Shown piece after piece: positions 8,285 through 33,360 of a stretch of 33,361 nucleotides of DNA. The DNA lies in IMG/VR virus record IMGVR_UViG_3300030117_003609, positions 1 to 33,361 of that record; one strand, 5' to 3'. This DNA is from a virus. A model generated the notes under the pieces. The model searched no databases, was not told the origin of the DNA, and was given only the letters and a program-made list of their open reading frames with translations. Both the position numbers and the translations under genes were made by a program. How positions within the stretch are numbered: position 1 is the stretch's first letter; every line of letters begins with the position of its first letter.

Positions 8285-10426
8285 ATGGCAGTACGAATTA
8301 AACCCAGGCGAGAAACAGGCGGTGCGGGAGATACACCTACTACCTCTGATCTTGAAGCTTATGAGATAGCTCAAAATACTGCTGACAAACGATTGTTTGG
8401 TAGAGATGGCAGTAACAATATATTTGAGTTTGGTATCAACCCAACATCTCTTACTACAGGTGCAATAACCGCATCTGGAACTGTGACAGCGAACTCATCA
8501 TTGGTTTCGTCTAACGCTACGTTTACGGGTGGAACCATTAATGGAATGGTTATTGGTGGGTCATCAGCCGCTGCTATAACTGGCACAGTTGTTACTGCAT
8601 CTACTAATTTTGCTGGCAACATTACAGGAAACGTCACAGGAAACGTAACCGGAAATATAACTGGGAATATTAGTGGTGATGTAACAGGTAATGTAACGGC
8701 AGGATCTGGCACATCTACATTTAATAACTTAGTAGTAAATGGAACAGTAGATTTTACTGATACTGTTTTAACTAATTTAGCATCTCCGTCTTCTGACACA
8801 GATGCTGCTACTAAGGGTTATGTAGATACTCAACTGACTAATCTGGTTGGTGGTGCGCCTGCTGCGCTCGATACATTGAATGAGTTAGCGGCTGCTTTGA
8901 ATGATGATGCGGCTTTTAACACCACAATTACAAACTCCATAGCAACTAAACTGCCACTAGCAGGTGGCACGATGTCTGGTGCGATTGCTATGGGAAGCAA
9001 TAAGATTACCGGGCTTACTAGTGGGTCGGCATCGGGTGACGCAGTAAATAAAGGTCAGTTAGATACCATGTTGCCTTTGGCGGGCGGCACGATGACAGGC
9101 AATATTGTCCTTGGTTCTAATGTAATTACATCTAGTGCCAACCCCAGTGATGACACTCATCTTGCTCGTAAAGCCTATGTAGACTCGATATTAGGAAGTG
9201 CTACATCAGCAGCAACAAGCGCATCTACCGCCACAACAAAAGCCTCGGAAGCAGCAACATCTGCAACAAATGCAGCTAGTAGTGCTACAGCAGCAGCATC
9301 TTCTGCAACGTCTGCTGCAAATTCGTTTGATGCATTTGACGATATATTTTTAGGAGCTAAGTCATCAGACCCGTCTGTAGACAATGATGGAGATGCCTTA
9401 GCTACAGGAGCGTTATATTTTAATAGCTCATCTAATGTAATGAAGGTCTACGGCGGCTCATCGTGGGCAAACGTAGCACCTACAGCAACAAGCGTTTCAG
9501 TAAGCCAAGTATCTGACCTTACGGCAACAGCATCAGAATTAAATATAATGGACGGTGTAACAGCTACAACGGCAGAACTAAATATTTTAGATGGAGTGAC
9601 TGCTACTGCTACAGAGCTGAATATTTTAGACGGCGTAACTAGCACCACAGCAGAATTAAATATTCTGGATGGCGTAACTAGTACAACAGCCGAGTTGAAT
9701 ATATTAGATGGCGTCACTGCAACAACTGCTGAATTAAATTATACAGATGGAGTTACCTCAAATATACAAACTCAATTAGACGCCAAACAGGCTTTAGATG
9801 CTAATCTAACGAGTTTTGTTGGAACATTTACATTGCCTACAAGCGATGGCTCTAATGGGCAGGTATTAGCTACAAATGGTAGCGGTACACTCTCGTTAGC
9901 GGATGCAGGTGGTGGTTCTTGGAATTTAATTTCCACTACAACAGTCTCAAGCGCAGTATCATCGATAGACATTACATCGGGGATTGACTCAACGTACAAA
10001 ATGTATGTTATGCAGGCCATAAATATACAAGTGGCAAGTTCAGGAAATCACAGGATGTACTTACGAACATCGTCATCAGGCTCAAGTTTTGACACTAGTG
10101 AGGGAGATTACCTTCGGAGATATGTCACAAACGGTTCAGCGGGGTCTGCGGGGCCATCAGGTGGCGGTTCAGTTTATTTAGAGATGCACGATGGTGGCCC
10201 AAGTCCCGGTGACTTCCATAATGCGTTGATATGGATCGTTGACCCATCAAACTCTTCAACAAACACCGTCTTGTTTTGGGATGACTCAGTCGTAAGAAGC
10301 ACCGCTGCTTTAAGAACTATTGGGGCAGGAGTAAGGCTTGCTACTGCTGCTGTAACTGGAATTAGGTTGTTTCATGCGGGTGGAAACATTTCTGACGGCA
10401 TTGTTAAGTTATACGGCATATCTTAA
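8285..10426 (+). CDS. Tail fibre / appendage-like repetitive protein
   Basis: A 713-aa structural protein, likely a host-contacting fibre. Its modules in order are a short conserved head, GN(V/I)TGN repeats (about 111-137) characteristic of beta-helical fibres, two LPLAGGTM(S/T)G motifs (about 224 and 264), an Ala/Ser/Thr-rich helical stretch (about 303-346), an ASSATAAASS-type linker, six 13-residue AELN(I/Y)xDGVTxT repeats (about 416-492), and a glycine/serine-rich C-terminal domain ending IRLFHAGGNISDGIVKLYGI. The chaperone-like gene downstream supports a trimeric fibre. Receptor specificity cannot be inferred. Confidence 0.85.
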   Translation: MAVRIKPRRETGGAGDTPTTSDLEAYEIAQNTADKRLFGRDGSNNIFEFGINPTSLTTGAITASGTVTANSSLVSSNATFTGGTINGMVIGGSSAAAITGTVVTASTNFAGNITGNVTGNVTGNITGNISGDVTGNVTAGSGTSTFNNLVVNGTVDFTDTVLTNLASPSSDTDAATKGYVDTQLTNLVGGAPAALDTLNELAAALNDDAAFNTTITNSIATKLPLAGGTMSGAIAMGSNKITGLTSGSASGDAVNKGQLDTMLPLAGGTMTGNIVLGSNVITSSANPSDDTHLARKAYVDSILGSATSAATSASTATTKASEAATSATNAASSATAAASSATSAANSFDAFDDIFLGAKSSDPSVDNDGDALATGALYFNSSSNVMKVYGGSSWANVAPTATSVSVSQVSDLTATASELNIMDGVTATTAELNILDGVTATATELNILDGVTSTTAELNILDGVTSTTAELNILDGVTATTAELNYTDGVTSNIQTQLDAKQALDANLTSFVGTFTLPTSDGSNGQVLATNGSGTLSLADAGGGSWNLISTTTVSSAVSSIDITSGIDSTYKMYVMQAINIQVASSGNHRMYLRTSSSGSSFDTSEGDYLRRYVTNGSAGSAGPSGGGSVYLEMHDGGPSPGDFHNALIWIVDPSNSSTNTVLFWDDSVVRSTAALRTIGAGVRLATAAVTGIRLFHAGGNISDGIVKLYGIS
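9528..9765 (+). repeat. Six 39-bp coding repeats in the fibre gene
   Basis: Six consecutive 13-codon units encode (T/A)xELN(I/Y)(L/M/T)DGVT(A/S)T. Copies differ mainly at third codon positions, so the repeat is maintained as protein. Units 2-5 are most alike, which leaves room for copy-number change by recombination and so for fibre length variation. Confidence 0.88.
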
Positions 10427-25137: not shown

Positions 25138-25230
25138 TTAGGAGAAGATTCCGTTGAGCATCATCATCAGCATCAACAGAAACAGTATGGTTGTGGCCGC
25201 TGCGTAAAGTGTTTCTTTTACAGTATTCAT
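25138..25230 (-). CDS. 30-aa single-helix membrane peptide
   Basis: MNTVKETLYAAATTILFLLM begins the frame, which continues with a further methionine/leucine-rich hydrophobic stretch and ends at a TAA at 25138. Evidence that it is real: its ATG overlaps the stop of the XRE-sigma4 gene (ATGA), AGAGG lies 7 bases upstream, and the next gene starts 20 bases later. It would be a single transmembrane helix with a short cytoplasmic N-terminus. Position next to a regulator suggests a membrane tether or antagonist, without direct evidence. Confidence 0.62.
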   Translation of the reverse strand: MNTVKETLYAAATTILFLLMLMMMLNGIFS

Positions 25231-25817
25231 AGGTCATCCTCTAGGTATGCTTTTAGGTCTCCTGACCGCGTGGGGTTTCGTAAGCGTCTCATTCCTTTGT
25301 TATAGATCTGTCTTGATCGCTCAAGGGAACGCCCGATCTGCTGTCCAATTTCGGTGAACGTATGCTCTCGGTCATAATCCTGGATACCATGACGCATTGT
25401 GATAACCTTTCTTATGCGGGGTGGTAACGAATTGAGAGCTTTAAAAATGTCAGACTGCGCTTGTTCCGTTATTAACAGTTGCTCGGCGGTTTTGTTCTCT
25501 AAAAAATTGCTAGACATCAGTTCAGACATATTCAATTCGACCTGCGCCTTGTTAGCCTCTAGGGGATCAAGGATGTTTTGGGGCGGGAACATATCTTCAA
25601 TGCCAATCATCAGAAAGTCGGCAAGTTTCTGAACGGATGTACGGACTCTTCCAACCTTATTCACAGGTGCGATCTGGAGATTAAGCATCTTTCCGATTTC
25701 AGTCTGAGTCACGCCAGAAGCCCTATGAAGCTCTGCTGCTGTCTGATATCCCCGCTGTCTCATTTGAGTCAGTAGATAGTTATTTTTAACCTTTATCTCA
25801 ATAGAATAATCTTTCAC
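25227..25817 (-). CDS. XRE helix-turn-helix fused to sigma70 region 4
   Basis: This 196-aa regulator has an N-terminal Cro/CI-type helix-turn-helix (about 13-77; LLTQMRQRGYQTAAELHRAS, GVTQTEIGKML), a helical linker and a C-terminal sigma region 4 (about 119-183). The latter reads ALNSLPPRIRKVITMRHGI, then TFTEIGQQIGRSLERSRQIY and NKGMRRLRNP, very close to the -35 recognition region of primary sigma factors. Region 2 (core binding/-10 melting) is absent, so it is not a full sigma factor. It probably recruits host RNA polymerase to particular promoters, perhaps the late promoter at 687-714. GTG start with GTGA overlap. Confidence 0.87.
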   Translation of the reverse strand: MKDYSIEIKVKNNYLLTQMRQRGYQTAAELHRASGVTQTEIGKMLNLQIAPVNKVGRVRTSVQKLADFLMIGIEDMFPPQNILDPLEANKAQVELNMSELMSSNFLENKTAEQLLITEQAQSDIFKALNSLPPRIRKVITMRHGIQDYDREHTFTEIGQQIGRSLERSRQIYNKGMRRLRNPTRSGDLKAYLEDDL

Positions 25818-25966
25818 AGGCCATCCTTAATCTCTTGTAGTTTGTCTTTGATTTCCTCTAGTTGGTCTTTCAATTCATCAAGTATGTCCGATAGCTTGGC
25901 AACGTGCCGCGCTACTTCCATTAACTCTTCTGTCTCTTCTTCATCCATCTCTAGATTTATTCTCAT
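25814..25966 (-). CDS. 50-aa acidic coiled-coil protein
   Basis: The frame starts MRINLEMDEEETEELMEVAR and continues as a leucine/isoleucine heptad coiled coil (LSDILDELKDQLEEIKDKLQ). Both ends are embedded: its ATG overlaps the radical SAM stop (ATGA) and its stop overlaps the XRE-sigma4 GTG (GTGA). The overlaps and regular heptads argue for a real gene. It could be a dimeric partner of the regulator encoded next to it, or a DNA mimic because of its acidity; both are guesses. Confidence 0.68.
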   Translation of the reverse strand: MRINLEMDEEETEELMEVARHVAKLSDILDELKDQLEEIKDKLQEIKDGL

Positions 25967-26844
25967 CGATTATAATCGTCCCACTTAACGGTGTTAAATA
26001 TAGCTTTGTGATTCACCCACCTGGTGAATTTTCTCTGGTACGGGTCTTCCTTGTTATATGGCATTACAAACGGATCGCAACCGTAGCTGCGTAACACCTC
26101 AACACGGTGCATATCCTCTTCTGGTGTAGAGTGATATCCAATTAGAACGTAAAAGCCCATTTGATATGGCTTAATTCCCGCATCAAGGCAAGTCTGGATC
26201 CCCTTATGGATCAGCTTTTCATGGCGAGGATCATCCCACGCAAAGTTGACTGATTTTGTTTTACCAGACAATGACCGAAAATTGACGCTGGCGAGTGCTT
26301 CTGCTTGCTCTGACTTAATATTGCGTATATTTAACCCTTGATTAAAATTGACTCTAAGATTTAGATCTCTAATTTCTGCGATGCGATCTCGCCACGCTGG
26401 GTTTCCGAAAAAATCATTATCAAGCAAAACCACAAAGTCTGATGTCCTCTGTGTCCAAATTTCAGGTATCGTCATCACCCCGTAGGGTTTACCCTCCTTC
26501 TCTGGAACAACGCAAAAACTGCACTTCAATCGACAGCCGCGCATGGTAAACCCAATGTTGTGTGGATAGTTGTAGATGTTGTAGTCGGGAACCATGTTTT
26601 CGATCTCATCTGGCAGAGTCTTTTTCATATCCCACCCAGTGCCACCTATAATCATGCGCTCATCACTTAGCATTGAGTCATCACTAAAATTGAATATTTT
26701 GGACGCATATATTTTGTCGTATTCATCACGGAACAATGGCATGTAATGCTCAACGTGATCACCCTGCTGCTTGTGCCACGCCGAGATCTTCATCAAGGCA
26801 AGATTAGGGATCTTGCTGTCGACATCATAAATTGCAATTCTCAT
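25963..26844 (-). CDS. Radical SAM enzyme, unknown substrate
   Basis: A 293-aa protein with the cluster motif C-x3-C-x2-C at Cys104, Cys108 and Cys111 (RGCRLKCSFCVVPEKEG), which holds a 4Fe-4S cluster and cleaves S-adenosylmethionine. The first 95 residues resemble a shortened cobalamin-binding-type Rossmann domain (MRIAIYDVDSKIPNLALMKI) without the DxHxxG motif. The later LLDNDFFGNP and VNFNQGLN segments complete the barrel. It lies inside the recombination operon, starting by ATGA overlap with the NinB-like gene. A nucleotide, tRNA or protein modification is possible; the substrate cannot be inferred. Confidence 0.92.
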   Translation of the reverse strand: MRIAIYDVDSKIPNLALMKISAWHKQQGDHVEHYMPLFRDEYDKIYASKIFNFSDDSMLSDERMIIGGTGWDMKKTLPDEIENMVPDYNIYNYPHNIGFTMRGCRLKCSFCVVPEKEGKPYGVMTIPEIWTQRTSDFVVLLDNDFFGNPAWRDRIAEIRDLNLRVNFNQGLNIRNIKSEQAEALASVNFRSLSGKTKSVNFAWDDPRHEKLIHKGIQTCLDAGIKPYQMGFYVLIGYHSTPEEDMHRVEVLRSYGCDPFVMPYNKEDPYQRKFTRWVNHKAIFNTVKWDDYNR

Positions 26845-27308
26845 TGGTTTTGGCTTCCGCTATATTCTAAATAATCGCCCTGTGCTTCTAACAGTAGCCC
26901 CTCTTCTGCAAAAAACGACTGCATCCAATCCAAGAAGAACGTCATCTCACCCTTAGTCCAGTTGCCACTAGATGTGAGATCTGTCTTTCTCTGCTTGGTC
27001 TGAGGGTTAATTAAGGTCTGCACTAGGAAGCTCTGCTTGGTGTCGCTGTAGCAACGCATCTTGCAGTACCGCTTCATGCTCTCTAGCTCGATGTCCGATA
27101 CCTTGCTCTTAAAAGTAAACTTGGCAGCTTCGCGTAGCCAGATGTGAAACAGGGCGTTTTGGGACAGACCGCGCAGCGAAAACACCTTGCAGTCCATCCC
27201 CTCGCTTGAAAACGCTATCGACACCTGCCCTTCTTTCTGCAATACACGCGCAGCAGAGCGGAATACAGTCCTGAGGTCTTCCTCATTGTAGACAGCGTGA
27301 GTTTCCAT
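26841..27308 (-). CDS. NinB-like recombination protein
   Basis: A 155-aa protein whose second half follows the NinB/YbcN pattern: RGLSQNALFHIWLREAAKFT, SDIELESMKRYCKMRC, then SSGNWTKGEMTFFLDWMQSF and FAEEGLLL. In lambda the family (Orf) binds ssDNA and SSB and helps load annealing protein. The SSB gene immediately upstream (TGATG overlap) and the NinG-like gene downstream give the same context here. The N-terminal 50 residues are less clear. Confidence 0.72.
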   Translation of the reverse strand: METHAVYNEEDLRTVFRSAARVLQKEGQVSIAFSSEGMDCKVFSLRGLSQNALFHIWLREAAKFTFKSKVSDIELESMKRYCKMRCYSDTKQSFLVQTLINPQTKQRKTDLTSSGNWTKGEMTFFLDWMQSFFAEEGLLLEAQGDYLEYSGSQNQ

Positions 27309-27709
27309 CAGAACGGTATGTCATCGTCAAAGTCAAACTCATCCGGTATCGAACTTGCTGCCATATCCTGCTGAGTAGGCTCTACGGTCTCAGGGTTGTA
27401 CACAAGCTCAATTGTTACCGCAACCACCTGAGTTTTCCACACCTTGTGCTTCTGACCATCCCCAAAATCCTTGTCGTAACTGGAGTTCTGTAGACGGCCC
27501 TCGACATACAGCCTAGAGCCTTTATGAACATACTTGGAAAGGAAGTTATCCACAACCGCCCCGAATGCTACGCAGTCGTGGTATGTCGCTGTCTCTTTGA
27601 AGTTGGTAGCCAGAGAAAAGTTGGCTACGGATACGCCGCCCGTTGATTGTCTGATACTAGGGTCTTTTACCACCGTACCGACGATAATTGCTTTATTTAC
27701 GCCTTTCAT
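27308..27709 (-). CDS. ssb: Single-stranded DNA-binding protein
   Basis: A 133-aa OB-fold SSB. The start MKGVNKAIIVGTVVKDPSIR is chosen because GGAG lies 7 bases upstream and its ATG overlaps the exonuclease stop (ATGA); an ATG 18 bases further upstream is possible. Family marks are VANFSLATNFKE, TYHDCVAFGAVVDNFLSKYV, HKGSRLYVEGRLQNSSY and the acidic tail DEFDFDDDIPF that docks partner proteins. It would protect replication intermediates and work with the Sak3-like annealing protein. Confidence 0.95.
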   Translation of the reverse strand: MKGVNKAIIVGTVVKDPSIRQSTGGVSVANFSLATNFKETATYHDCVAFGAVVDNFLSKYVHKGSRLYVEGRLQNSSYDKDFGDGQKHKVWKTQVVAVTIELVYNPETVEPTQQDMAASSIPDEFDFDDDIPF

Positions 27710-28350
27710 GTATTCACTCCATCCCATTGGAATTTATTCACGCCCTCTTCAATCAGCAGGACGGCCTCTTGTAGATTTGTGACAAGCTCGTTGATCAGGT
27801 CATCATCCCGGTAGGTACGGATCATAAATGGCCGCATCTTTGGGTGATAAGACATGAAATCCCAAAATCCCCTGCCCGTAACAAACATACAACCCTGAAC
27901 CTGTAGCAGATACTTGGAAGGCAGCTTCCCTGCTCTCAGGTATTCAACGTGCGTGCCCTGTAACGGGCATTTGATCTCTAGCCCACCTATCAAGCCACGG
28001 TCGCACTTAACGTCTATCAGGCCATCAGGACTGCATCCGACTTCCATGTTTGGGTGCTTGATGAAGTCTACCCCCTTGTGTCTTACATCAACCTCTTCAA
28101 TAAGCTGATACATTGCTCTGGCTTCATCCTCCAGGCTAGTGCCGCGCTCCATTGGCTCAGTGATTTTGACGTAGGTGGGATCTCCAGTGAGCTTCTCTGC
28201 TATCAGGGCGTTCACATAGCTGTTGAAGGACGTACTACGCTTGCCCGTAGTTGTGACTATCTTGCTGAAGTTTGACGCGCTAGGGACTCCCAGACGCGCT
28301 CTCAGCCATTCCTCAGTGCCTTGACCGCCACAATCTATTTCTCTGCTCAT
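27706..28350 (-). CDS. YqaJ / lambda-exonuclease-type 5'-3' exonuclease
   Basis: A 214-aa protein of the viral recombinase fold. The motifs in order are QGTEEWLRARLG (10-21), PMERGTSLEDEARAMY (66-81), GCSPDGLI with catalytic Asp109 (105-112), LEIKCP with Glu125-x-Lys127 (124-129) and LLQVQG (148-153). It resects double-stranded ends to give 3' tails for the annealing protein at 28872. Both ends overlap neighbours by ATGA. Confidence 0.93.
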   Translation of the reverse strand: MSREIDCGGQGTEEWLRARLGVPSASNFSKIVTTTGKRSTSFNSYVNALIAEKLTGDPTYVKITEPMERGTSLEDEARAMYQLIEEVDVRHKGVDFIKHPNMEVGCSPDGLIDVKCDRGLIGGLEIKCPLQGTHVEYLRAGKLPSKYLLQVQGCMFVTGRGFWDFMSYHPKMRPFMIRTYRDDDLINELVTNLQEAVLLIEEGVNKFQWDGVNT

Positions 28351-28583: not shown

Positions 28584-28875
28584 CCAACACCCCCTGACCT
28601 TTTTTTGGTGGAGGCAGCAAGCGATACTGGTACAAGCCGTTGCCTAAATGCGTTTTATCCACTATAAAACCACCAAAACGCTCCTTTTTCAGATGTCTAA
28701 GCTGTGCTGATACACTAGCCTCTGGATCTCCTGTAGCGTCTGAAATCTGCCCTAAAGTGCGCGGTATGCCATCAATCATAAGGCTATGCACCCTTTTGAT
28801 CTGGCCGCTGAGTCTCACATCATCCCGCTCAGGAACGTAATCTGAGCCGTTGAACATTTCCTTGTAAATACTCAT
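28576..28875 (-). CDS. Winged-helix DNA-binding protein, 99 aa
   Basis: Begins MSIYKEMFNGSDYVPERDDV and holds a winged helix (about 20-90): LSGQIKRVHSLMIDGIPRTL, GQISDATGDPEASVSAQLRH and the wing GLYQYRLL. Proteins with this VPERD-RL-GQ-RV...GDPEASVSAQLRHL pattern are common in phage recombination modules. The role may be repression of the early operon or help in replication. It is coupled by ATGA to the annealing gene. Confidence 0.83.
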   Translation of the reverse strand: MSIYKEMFNGSDYVPERDDVRLSGQIKRVHSLMIDGIPRTLGQISDATGDPEASVSAQLRHLKKERFGGFIVDKTHLGNGLYQYRLLPPPKKGQGVLDV

Positions 28876-29435
28876 GAGTCACCGCCCTGCTTCTCCAGCT
28901 TAGCGTTCAACATTGTTATTGCCCTGTCGAAGTCTCTGGTGCTTAGGTCATCAACTGAACCCACCTTAAAGTGAGTGCAGAAAGCCTCCTTCAAAGTGTT
29001 GGTCTCAGACATCAGATCCACTATCTCTCGCGCCTGTTCTGGAGTGATCGTTTGCGCCTTAGCTTGTGGTACGCCCTCGCCTTGGTATATGTAAAAACCA
29101 AGCCCAAACATACTCATATTTTTCGTGAAGCACCTCATACGGGCGTCTGATATGTCATCGCAGCTTGGATTCTGGATAGCTTGGTTCTTGTGATCAGTAA
29201 CAGCCAACCACATTGGGCGTGTGATGCTATTGATCTCCATCTCAGTATGCACAGTAACAGAGCCGTCACCATGCACCTGATCAGGTAGTTCTCGAAAGAT
29301 CGCGCTCGGGTAATGCTCCATCAGGGTTGCCCAAGCATAGTTCCAAGGCAGGTAGTCAAACTTGCCTTTGGACTTCTTGTGTTCATTGACATTGATGGCT
29401 GAGAGAGTTTCCCAGATTAGTTTGGCTTCACTCAT
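28872..29435 (-). CDS. Single-strand annealing protein (Sak3/DUF1071-like)
   Basis: A 187-aa protein with the family opening LIWETLSAINVNEHKKSKGK, followed by FDYLPWNYAWATLMEHYP and a central SVTVHTEMEINSITRPMWLA. The block DDISDARMRCFTKNMSMFGL closes the core domain; the remaining helical tail is variable in the family. Such proteins anneal complementary strands, replacing RecA or Red beta. Together with exonuclease and SSB they form a complete two-component recombinase, and here they probably support concatemer formation. Assignment to Sak3 rather than another annealing family is from memory. Confidence 0.83.
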   Translation of the reverse strand: MSEAKLIWETLSAINVNEHKKSKGKFDYLPWNYAWATLMEHYPSAIFRELPDQVHGDGSVTVHTEMEINSITRPMWLAVTDHKNQAIQNPSCDDISDARMRCFTKNMSMFGLGFYIYQGEGVPQAKAQTITPEQAREIVDLMSETNTLKEAFCTHFKVGSVDDLSTRDFDRAITMLNAKLEKQGGDS

Positions 29436-31815: not shown

Positions 31816-31846
31816 GTTAAAATATCCCCTCATTTGCTCTTTAAAA

Positions 31847-31880
31847 ATTAGTGAACTGCGATAATTATGTCTACACCGTT
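31847..31880. repeat. 34-bp repeat, copy A (end of the GP88-like gene)
   Basis: Aligned with 33041-33074, 31 of 34 bases agree. This copy encodes the C-terminus NGVDIIIAVH and stop of the GP88-like protein. The three differences fall on third codon positions and are synonymous in the GP88 frame, which hints that the shared feature is the encoded peptide. Confidence 0.85.
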
Positions 31881-32684
31881 GAAGCGGTCAGACCCGCAAG
31901 CATGGCCCGATTTTGTACAATTGCCGCATAATCCCGGGCAGGTAAATGCTTTTTTACCATATGCTGCGCGTAGGTCAGCTTGGTGCGTTCTATCGGCGTG
32001 ATCTGCTGATTTGACTTTTCTACCGAGTGATACCGCTTTAAATTCACCGCGCACAAATGGTAGCTGTTTTAGCTTATTCTTAATCGCGTCAGTGTATTTG
32101 CTACCGCTTGATAGATTCAGTAGGTAATTGGTCGGTATTACGTCATCGTAATCTAGAAAAGCTTGCCAGGATTTACTGTATCCGTATGCTTTCAACCATT
32201 GACGATTATTAAGAGCGCGAAACCAGAAAGCTATATCAGAAACGCCTGTGAAATCACCGTCAACGTATAAGCGGAAGTCTATTTGACCAGATTCCGGTTG
32301 AAATTTGTCTAATGCCATTAATATGTGGCCGCGTCCGCGCATTGATTGAAGCAATATCGCGTTTTGGGCTTGTCTACAGAAAGCTGCTGGATACCGCCAT
32401 GCTCGGAATGAATAACACCAATTTAGGCAATCGCCAGCGCCGACACAGAAACCAGACCCAGGTAAGCTTGAAAACGCCAGAAAAGGAAGCTTTCCGTTGC
32501 CATCCTTGGCGAATATAGAGAACCTCGGAATATCGTCTATTAGGAAATCGCGCAGTTTAGTTAGATCTCTCCGCCAATTGACGCCGATATCTTGTGCAAG
32601 CTGTTGGTTGATGATTTTGTGGACTGTGTCAAAGTCCCGCGCAGAAATAGCGGACGCAATCCGCTTCAAAGTGAATCTTTTCAT
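31848..32684 (-). CDS. GP88-like cysteine-rich protein, unknown function
   Basis: A 278-aa protein with two four-cysteine clusters: Cys80, 86, 90, 103 (GFCVGAGDCLNWCYSF...FC) and Cys249, 253, 256, 263 (CPGLCGNCTKSGHAC). Between them are FRLYVDGDFTGVSDIAFWFR (138-157) and LKAYGYSKSWQAF (164-176). The order SLPG-C-x5-C-x3-CY, GDF, Y(T/S)KSW, C-terminal cysteines fits the mycobacteriophage L5 gp88 family (from memory), whose function is unknown. Metal or Fe-S binding is likely. It is the largest gene of the accessory operon and its last residues recur after the gene at 33074. Confidence 0.82.
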   Translation of the reverse strand: MKRFTLKRIASAISARDFDTVHKIINQQLAQDIGVNWRRDLTKLRDFLIDDIPRFSIFAKDGNGKLPFLAFSSLPGSGFCVGAGDCLNWCYSFRAWRYPAAFCRQAQNAILLQSMRGRGHILMALDKFQPESGQIDFRLYVDGDFTGVSDIAFWFRALNNRQWLKAYGYSKSWQAFLDYDDVIPTNYLLNLSSGSKYTDAIKNKLKQLPFVRGEFKAVSLGRKVKSADHADRTHQADLRAAYGKKAFTCPGLCGNCTKSGHACGSDRFNGVDIIIAVH

Positions 32685-32715
32685 AATCTATACTCTGTTT
32701 GCTGAATAATGATTT

Positions 32716-32994
32716 TTACGGGTTTAGCGGGTCCAGTTCGCAAGTTTCAATCGCCATTTCAATGAACGCGGCAATTGTTTCTTCTGCAATCAATCGCAAT
32801 TGTTTCTTCTCCCATTTTTTAGCGGCAGCTCCATTCAATAACAGGAATGAATCTGGGTAATTCAGGATATCGCCAGATTGGTTACTGACTAACGCGCCGT
32901 CAAATGTAATAATGAGATTCTGATTATTGCCATTGCTGTAAAAATAAACGTCAATCGTTTTGCCGAGTGCGGTAAATGTGAAATGTACTGTCAT
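32716..32994 (-). CDS. Hypothetical protein, 92 aa, possible -1 extension
   Basis: Not recognised. MTVHFTFTALGKTIDVYFYS opens a beta-rich domain; a helical part follows (KKWEKKQLRLIAEETIAAFI). It ends ...CELDPLNP at TAA. The last sense codons read A-AAC-CCG, an X-XXY-YYZ type slip sequence directly before the stop. In the -1 frame reading continues as PVKIIIQQTEYRL, stopping in a TGA that overlaps the ATG of the GP88-like gene, the usual arrangement in this genome. Either programmed frameshifting or a missing base in the CCC run would give the longer protein (32682-32994). Confidence 0.7.
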   Translation of the reverse strand: MTVHFTFTALGKTIDVYFYSNGNNQNLIITFDGALVSNQSGDILNYPDSFLLLNGAAAKKWEKKQLRLIAEETIAAFIEMAIETCELDPLNP

Positions 32995-33040
32995 AGTAAT
33001 ATGTCTCCGTTTAAGTAAATTTATAAGCTTTCACCTATTA

Positions 33041-33074
33041 ATTAGTGAACTGCGATAATAATATCGACACCGTT
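33041..33074. repeat. 34-bp repeat, copy B
   Basis: Partner of 31847-31880. It lies just after the stop of the 63-aa gene. In the -1 frame of that gene it reads LNGVDIIIAVH followed by TAA, preceded by RFNV, so the similarity to the GP88 C-terminus (RFNGVDIIIAVH) extends past the repeat with a three-codon insertion. Confidence 0.85.
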
Positions 33075-33265
33075 CAGGACGTTGAATCTTTATAATAGTT
33101 TAATGTGTTCTCGATTTCATCGTGAGTCGTGCAGAAGGTTCCATCATCCCATCCAGTGCCGTCAATCCAATAGCCCCACCCGACATCATCTCGGATGGCG
33201 GTAATTGTCAGGCCCATAGTTGACGCAAACCTACGCAACTCTTTTAATGTCATTTTGTCACGCAT
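33074..33265 (-). CDS. Hypothetical protein, 63 aa, possible -1 extension
   Basis: The start MRDKMTLKELRRFASTMGLT is preferred because GAGGA stands about ten bases before its ATG; the ATG lies on the circle junction (equals positions 3-1). It has an N-terminal helix (LKELRRFASTMGL), a beta part rich in Trp/Gly/Asp (DDVGWGYWIDGTGWDDGTFC) and a short C-terminal helix. One extra A in the AAA run (33091-33089) would carry it into RFNVLNGVDIIIAVH and a TAA at 33042, a tail nearly identical to that of the GP88-like protein. Function unknown. Confidence 0.72.
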   Translation of the reverse strand: MRDKMTLKELRRFASTMGLTITAIRDDVGWGYWIDGTGWDDGTFCTTHDEIENTLNYYKDSTS

Positions 33266-33360
33266 AATATGTCGTTCCTCATTTCTGATTTCGGATCTGT
33301 GTAATGTACAAAACAATCGAGCATGTAATGACGCCATAAGATAGGCAAGCTAAAGCTGCC
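33263..33360. repeat. Terminal direct repeat, right copy (circular overlap)
   Basis: Exact copy of bases 1-98. Joined there, the minus-strand accessory operon runs without interruption from 402 across the junction to 31293. Base 33361 (A) differs from base 99 (C). Confidence 0.93.

Follow-up and report, generated by a model that had tools for sequence, protein, structure and literature searches.

Mosaic junctions in phage genomes are attributed to relaxed or illegitimate recombination, and Sak belongs to the Rad52-like phage recombinases, which are reported to be a driving force of mosaicism among phages that have diverged (De Paepe et al., 2014; PMC3945230). The locus described here resembles such junctions in that an unrelated module appears to be joined to a phage backbone at a gene boundary within an accessory region, and in that this phage also possesses genes for an annealing protein of the Sak family, for an exonuclease and for an SSB. 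It differs in that about 33 nt from the 3′ end of the gene that we infer to have been replaced is left behind, and can still be read as a peptide. That gene would belong to the GP88 family (Pfam PF17338, Gene product 88). The window analysed here (33,361 nucleotides; positions 1 to 33,361 of IMG/VR virus record IMGVR_UViG_3300030117_003609) contains a resident gene which is a clear member of this family, as well as an orphan sequence which reproduces the last ten residues of GP88 but consists of no more than the final ten codons, is not in frame, and lacks both a start codon and the Cys-rich core. We consider it very probable that this out-of-frame copy is the dead 3′ remnant of a GP88 allele which was replaced by a module carrying a 63-aa gene, and that it is an ordinary mosaic scar. 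The relevant features of the window are as follows.

27308-27727: SSB, part of the phage recombination set.
27706-28350: YqaJ exonuclease, part of the phage recombination set.
28872-29435, minus strand: Sak-type single-strand annealing protein, forming the recombination set with the YqaJ exonuclease and SSB.
31848-32684, minus strand: intact GP88-family gene, 278 aa (PF17338, E 3.8e-11).
31848-31880, minus strand: in-frame C-terminus of the resident GP88 gene which matches the orphan (repeat, 31846-31880); modelled as a β-strand.
32716-32994, minus strand: 92-aa gene, a component of the backbone shared with L025/L031 (66% identical), lying downstream of the orphan.
33005-33035, minus strand: leader of the 92-aa gene, common to L025; putative right side of the junction, with homology starting 6 nt past the orphan stop codon.
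33042-33074, minus strand: orphan GP88 3′ end, NGVDIIIAVH*, out of frame behind the 63-aa gene (repeat, 33040-33074).
33074-33265, minus strand: 63-aa gene with no assigned function (stop codon TGA at 33076-33074).

A first-pass annotation of this DNA had pointed to the same C-terminal tail at the ends of two different genes, one copy being out of frame. This observation holds: the two copies form a direct repeat of 35 nt (31846-31880 and 33040-33074, both on the minus strand) in which 32 of the 35 positions are identical. None of 100 shuffles contained a match to the repeat, and the best that random 35-mers of similar composition achieved anywhere in the genome was 24/35, compared with the 32/35 observed. 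The repeat proper encodes NGVDIIIAVH*. Its orphan copy starts on the last base of the TGA stop codon of the 63-aa gene and, as had been claimed, the −1 frame directly behind this stop encodes the tail, reading (stop) RFNVLNGVDIIIAVH (stop). An 'RFN' further upstream (...RFN-VLN-GVD...) lies outside the repeat and is three codons further upstream than in GP88; because its Arg codon differs between the copies, and because the ungapped match beyond the upstream edge of the repeat does not exceed background, this resemblance is probably fortuitous. The three mismatches within the repeat were also described correctly, in that all of them are synonymous and fall at third positions of the GP88 frame. 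By our own arithmetic such a 3/3 pattern would arise by chance about 1 time in 30 and, taken alone, it lends thin support; it is homology to GP88 that carries the case. The orphan is homologous to the end of a known gene of which nothing else is present, the hallmark of a gene remnant at a mosaic junction. A functional GP88 gene at this position is ruled out, given that only the last ~33 nt are present and that these are out of frame.

The tail is a property of the GP88 family. The resident gene scores 43.7 bits against Pfam PF17338 (gathering cut-off 24.4) and its structure matches in BFVD are GP88-domain proteins. Relatives across the family end in the tail motif or a close variant of it: 50 distinct GP88 C-termini from the fetched loci yield the consensus FKGV[DP]IIIAVH, with a terminal His in 49 of them, and an alignment of 45 GP88 homologues shows H278 to be invariant along with seven cysteines (C80, C86, C90, C249, C253, C256 and C263). 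The AlphaFold model of GP88 is confident (mean pLDDT 93) and places tail residues 273-276 in a β-strand (pLDDT of about 90 for the block), which argues that the tail is an integral part of the fold and not a detachable tag.

The 63-aa gene has relatives in two other phages (L022, 68%; L023, 65%), and an alignment-based scan revealed none beyond these. The two proteins end ...KKEACL* and ...KDACGTN*, at about the same stop point as the 63-aa gene, and behind neither gene is the GP88 tail present in any frame; unrelated DNA follows instead. Neither the 63-aa protein nor a nucleotide search of the region produced a match in annotated phage records. When a degenerate form of the tail pattern was searched against 2.9 million viral contigs, the matches outside this phage were in-frame GP88 ends. 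An orphan tail was found in no other phage, either in those contigs (exact degenerate pattern) or among the scanned loci, in scans that would miss strongly diverged orphans, and bacterial and archaeal genomes contained no match to the degenerate pattern. The shared C-terminal tag that had been suggested is therefore ruled out as a transferable element common to unrelated proteins, because the motif is the GP88 family end and is carried neither by the 63-aa homologues nor, in these scans, by other unrelated proteins. The related suggestion of selection on a shared peptide survives in part: the sequence has been shaped by selection, but on GP88 itself, and the 63-aa relatives lack the tail.

The same comparisons bear on a programmed or occasional −1 frameshift within the final five codons of the 63-aa gene. 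Such a shift would append the GP88-like tail and produce a second isoform that has a tag for docking or turnover in common with GP88. Over 15 codons, starting just past the AAA and ending at the TAA, the −1 frame stays open, and what it encodes is exactly the tail conserved in GP88. Nevertheless, we regard frameshifting as highly improbable and found no positive evidence for it. In addition to the two tail-less relatives and the failure to find other orphan tails in viral contigs or scanned loci, inspection of the sequence reveals no slippery heptamer (X-XXY-YYZ) within those five codons, the only place where the shift could occur, folding of the downstream RNA indicates no unusual structure (z −0.87), and the GP88 tail, with its invariant terminal His, is modelled as a β-strand belonging to the fold, as opposed to a flexible tag. 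It is fainter still as a prospect that low-level frameshifting extends the 63-aa protein into the GP88 C-terminal strand to create a decoy or partner which competes with or complements GP88.

On the other side of the orphan lies the 92-aa gene, whose leader sequence is GGTGAAAGCTTAT. A relative of this gene was found in one phage type only (L025 and L031, which are one contig), and DNA homology between the backbones (75% over 256 nt) begins 6 nt after the stop codon of the orphan. The L025 phage is nearly identical to this one in the divergent neighbour genes (98.6% for a terminase-small-like protein and 94% for lysozyme), and upstream of its 92-aa gene it carries an unrelated 68-aa gene without the GP88 tail. 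The flanking homologies switch at the remnant, being with L022/L023 on the 63-aa side and with L025/L031 on the 92-aa side. Because the L025 homology starts so close to the orphan stop, and an unrelated gene lies upstream of it in that phage, the orphan appears to lie at the operon front with a foreign module on one side and the phage backbone on the other. This is where four relatives carry GP88 itself, as the first gene after the divergent terminase-small-like/lysozyme block in L004 and L047, and as the second in L005 and L046. The intact resident GP88 gene is flanked by the 92-aa gene and the 48-aa gene. In L025 that slot is occupied by a 77-aa gene, and the same 46/48-aa gene comes next in both phages; both slots, that upstream of the 92-aa gene and that of the resident GP88, are therefore swap sites. 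No phage was found with an intact GP88 gene directly upstream of the 92-aa gene, and the leader was found only here and in L031.

The first-pass annotation had also allowed for a regulatory DNA repeat, and one could envisage the 35 nt as a DNA or RNA element (a promoter, operator or recombination site) which precedes the next gene and happens to overlap the GP88 coding end. Each copy does lie upstream of a small gene and is overlapped by a promoter-like match of 9/12. However, promoter-like matches are only modestly more numerous than in shuffled sequence (9 versus 4.7, sd 2.0), those at the two copies are on opposite strands, the downstream contexts of the copies differ, and L025 possesses the 92-aa leader without the element. 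We found no positive evidence for such an element and judge it very unlikely, because the DNA is not conserved as such: other GP88 genes retain the protein sequence of the tail while their third positions change freely.

A comparable codon pattern is seen between GP88 alleles. L004 and L030, which encode 91% identical proteins, have three differences in the tail stretch, all at third positions, and across the 510 nt that they have in common, changes affect 16 of 170 first, 3 of 170 second and 59 of 170 third positions. Since the differences between the orphan and the resident gene match this pattern, the orphan most likely diverged while it was part of a working gene and turned to scrap recently. 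The first-pass annotation had held that its reading of the tail as a selected peptide would fall if relatives of the 63-aa gene stopped at the same codon without a tail and if conservation of the DNA were independent of codon position. The relatives do stop at about the same codon and are tail-less; the differences, on the other hand, do depend on codon position, a pattern that the scrap would have inherited from GP88. The pattern also weighs on a short, gene-conversion-like ectopic duplication of the resident GP88 end into the 92-aa leader, with later drift and no replacement of a gene. It is true that the orphan is closest to the resident GP88 gene (3 differences, compared with at least 7 from any other GP88), and the two have in common an AAC codon and TAATT at and after the stop. 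But a non-coding copy should not gather third-position changes only, a pattern which implies divergence while coding, and it is at this end of the operon that GP88 is found in relatives, so this duplication has only a slim chance of being correct. The parent allele of the orphan cannot be placed on a tree because the homologous stretch is short (33-35 nt).

Finally, an error of sequencing or assembly was considered, by which either the 63-aa protein would in truth include the tail or the repeat would be an artefact of misassembly. This is a metagenome assembly and a one-base change would join the two frames. However, a second contig (IMGVR_UViG_3300030430_003577) which is not identical, having 13 aligned differences elsewhere, has the same bases throughout the region, and the 63-aa relatives have no tail. 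The probability of such an error is close to negligible.

A remnant of recombination with a GP88-like gene, another of the original suggestions, is supported by the family tail, the absence of a tail from the 63-aa relatives and the position of the junction; from these and the repeat, all of them direct observations, we infer the following order of events. In an ancestor, the front of the operon would have been occupied by a GP88 allele that immediately preceded the 92-aa gene. Recombination would have brought in the 63-aa gene and removed that GP88 save for its last ~33 nt, and because the two parts were joined precisely at the stop codon of the 63-aa gene, the scrap would have been left out of frame and is probably untranslated. 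The Sak/YqaJ/SSB machinery of the phage could have been the agent of the junction. A fragment of a coding region left at a mosaic junction can mimic a shared, selected peptide tag; it looks selected because its synonymous-only differences are inherited from its time as a real gene end. From scraps of this kind one can read both the exact point of recombination and the identity of the gene that formerly occupied the slot. In other respects, this gene remnant is a case of ordinary phage gene shuffling.

Several other features of the genome deserve mention. Sequence and fold searches of the PDB with GP88 returned no significant relative, and neither annotated phage records nor a literature search by name gave a match. 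Its weak, non-significant fold matches are to proteins such as spore photoproduct lyase and radical SAM proteins of viruses, and as a lead only, GP88 could be an Fe-S or radical-SAM-like enzyme. Separately, 25963-26844 has a weak radical SAM match below the Pfam cut-off, and 25227-25817 encodes a phage protein with a sigma-70 region 4. At 9492-9756 a degenerate unit occurs five times in tandem with a spacing of 39 nt, possibly within a repetitive structural protein. The contig is probably a closed circle: an exact 98-nt direct repeat is present at its termini (1-98 and 33263-33360), and another contig, L029, reads across the join. In related phages, a stretch resembling GGGGGCTACTATAATTATTACAG and then C-rich DNA precedes the operon (L025, 2432-2500; L004, 829-916; L023, 2142-2213; L003, 1372-1485), and this conserved stretch is a possible promoter or origin region.
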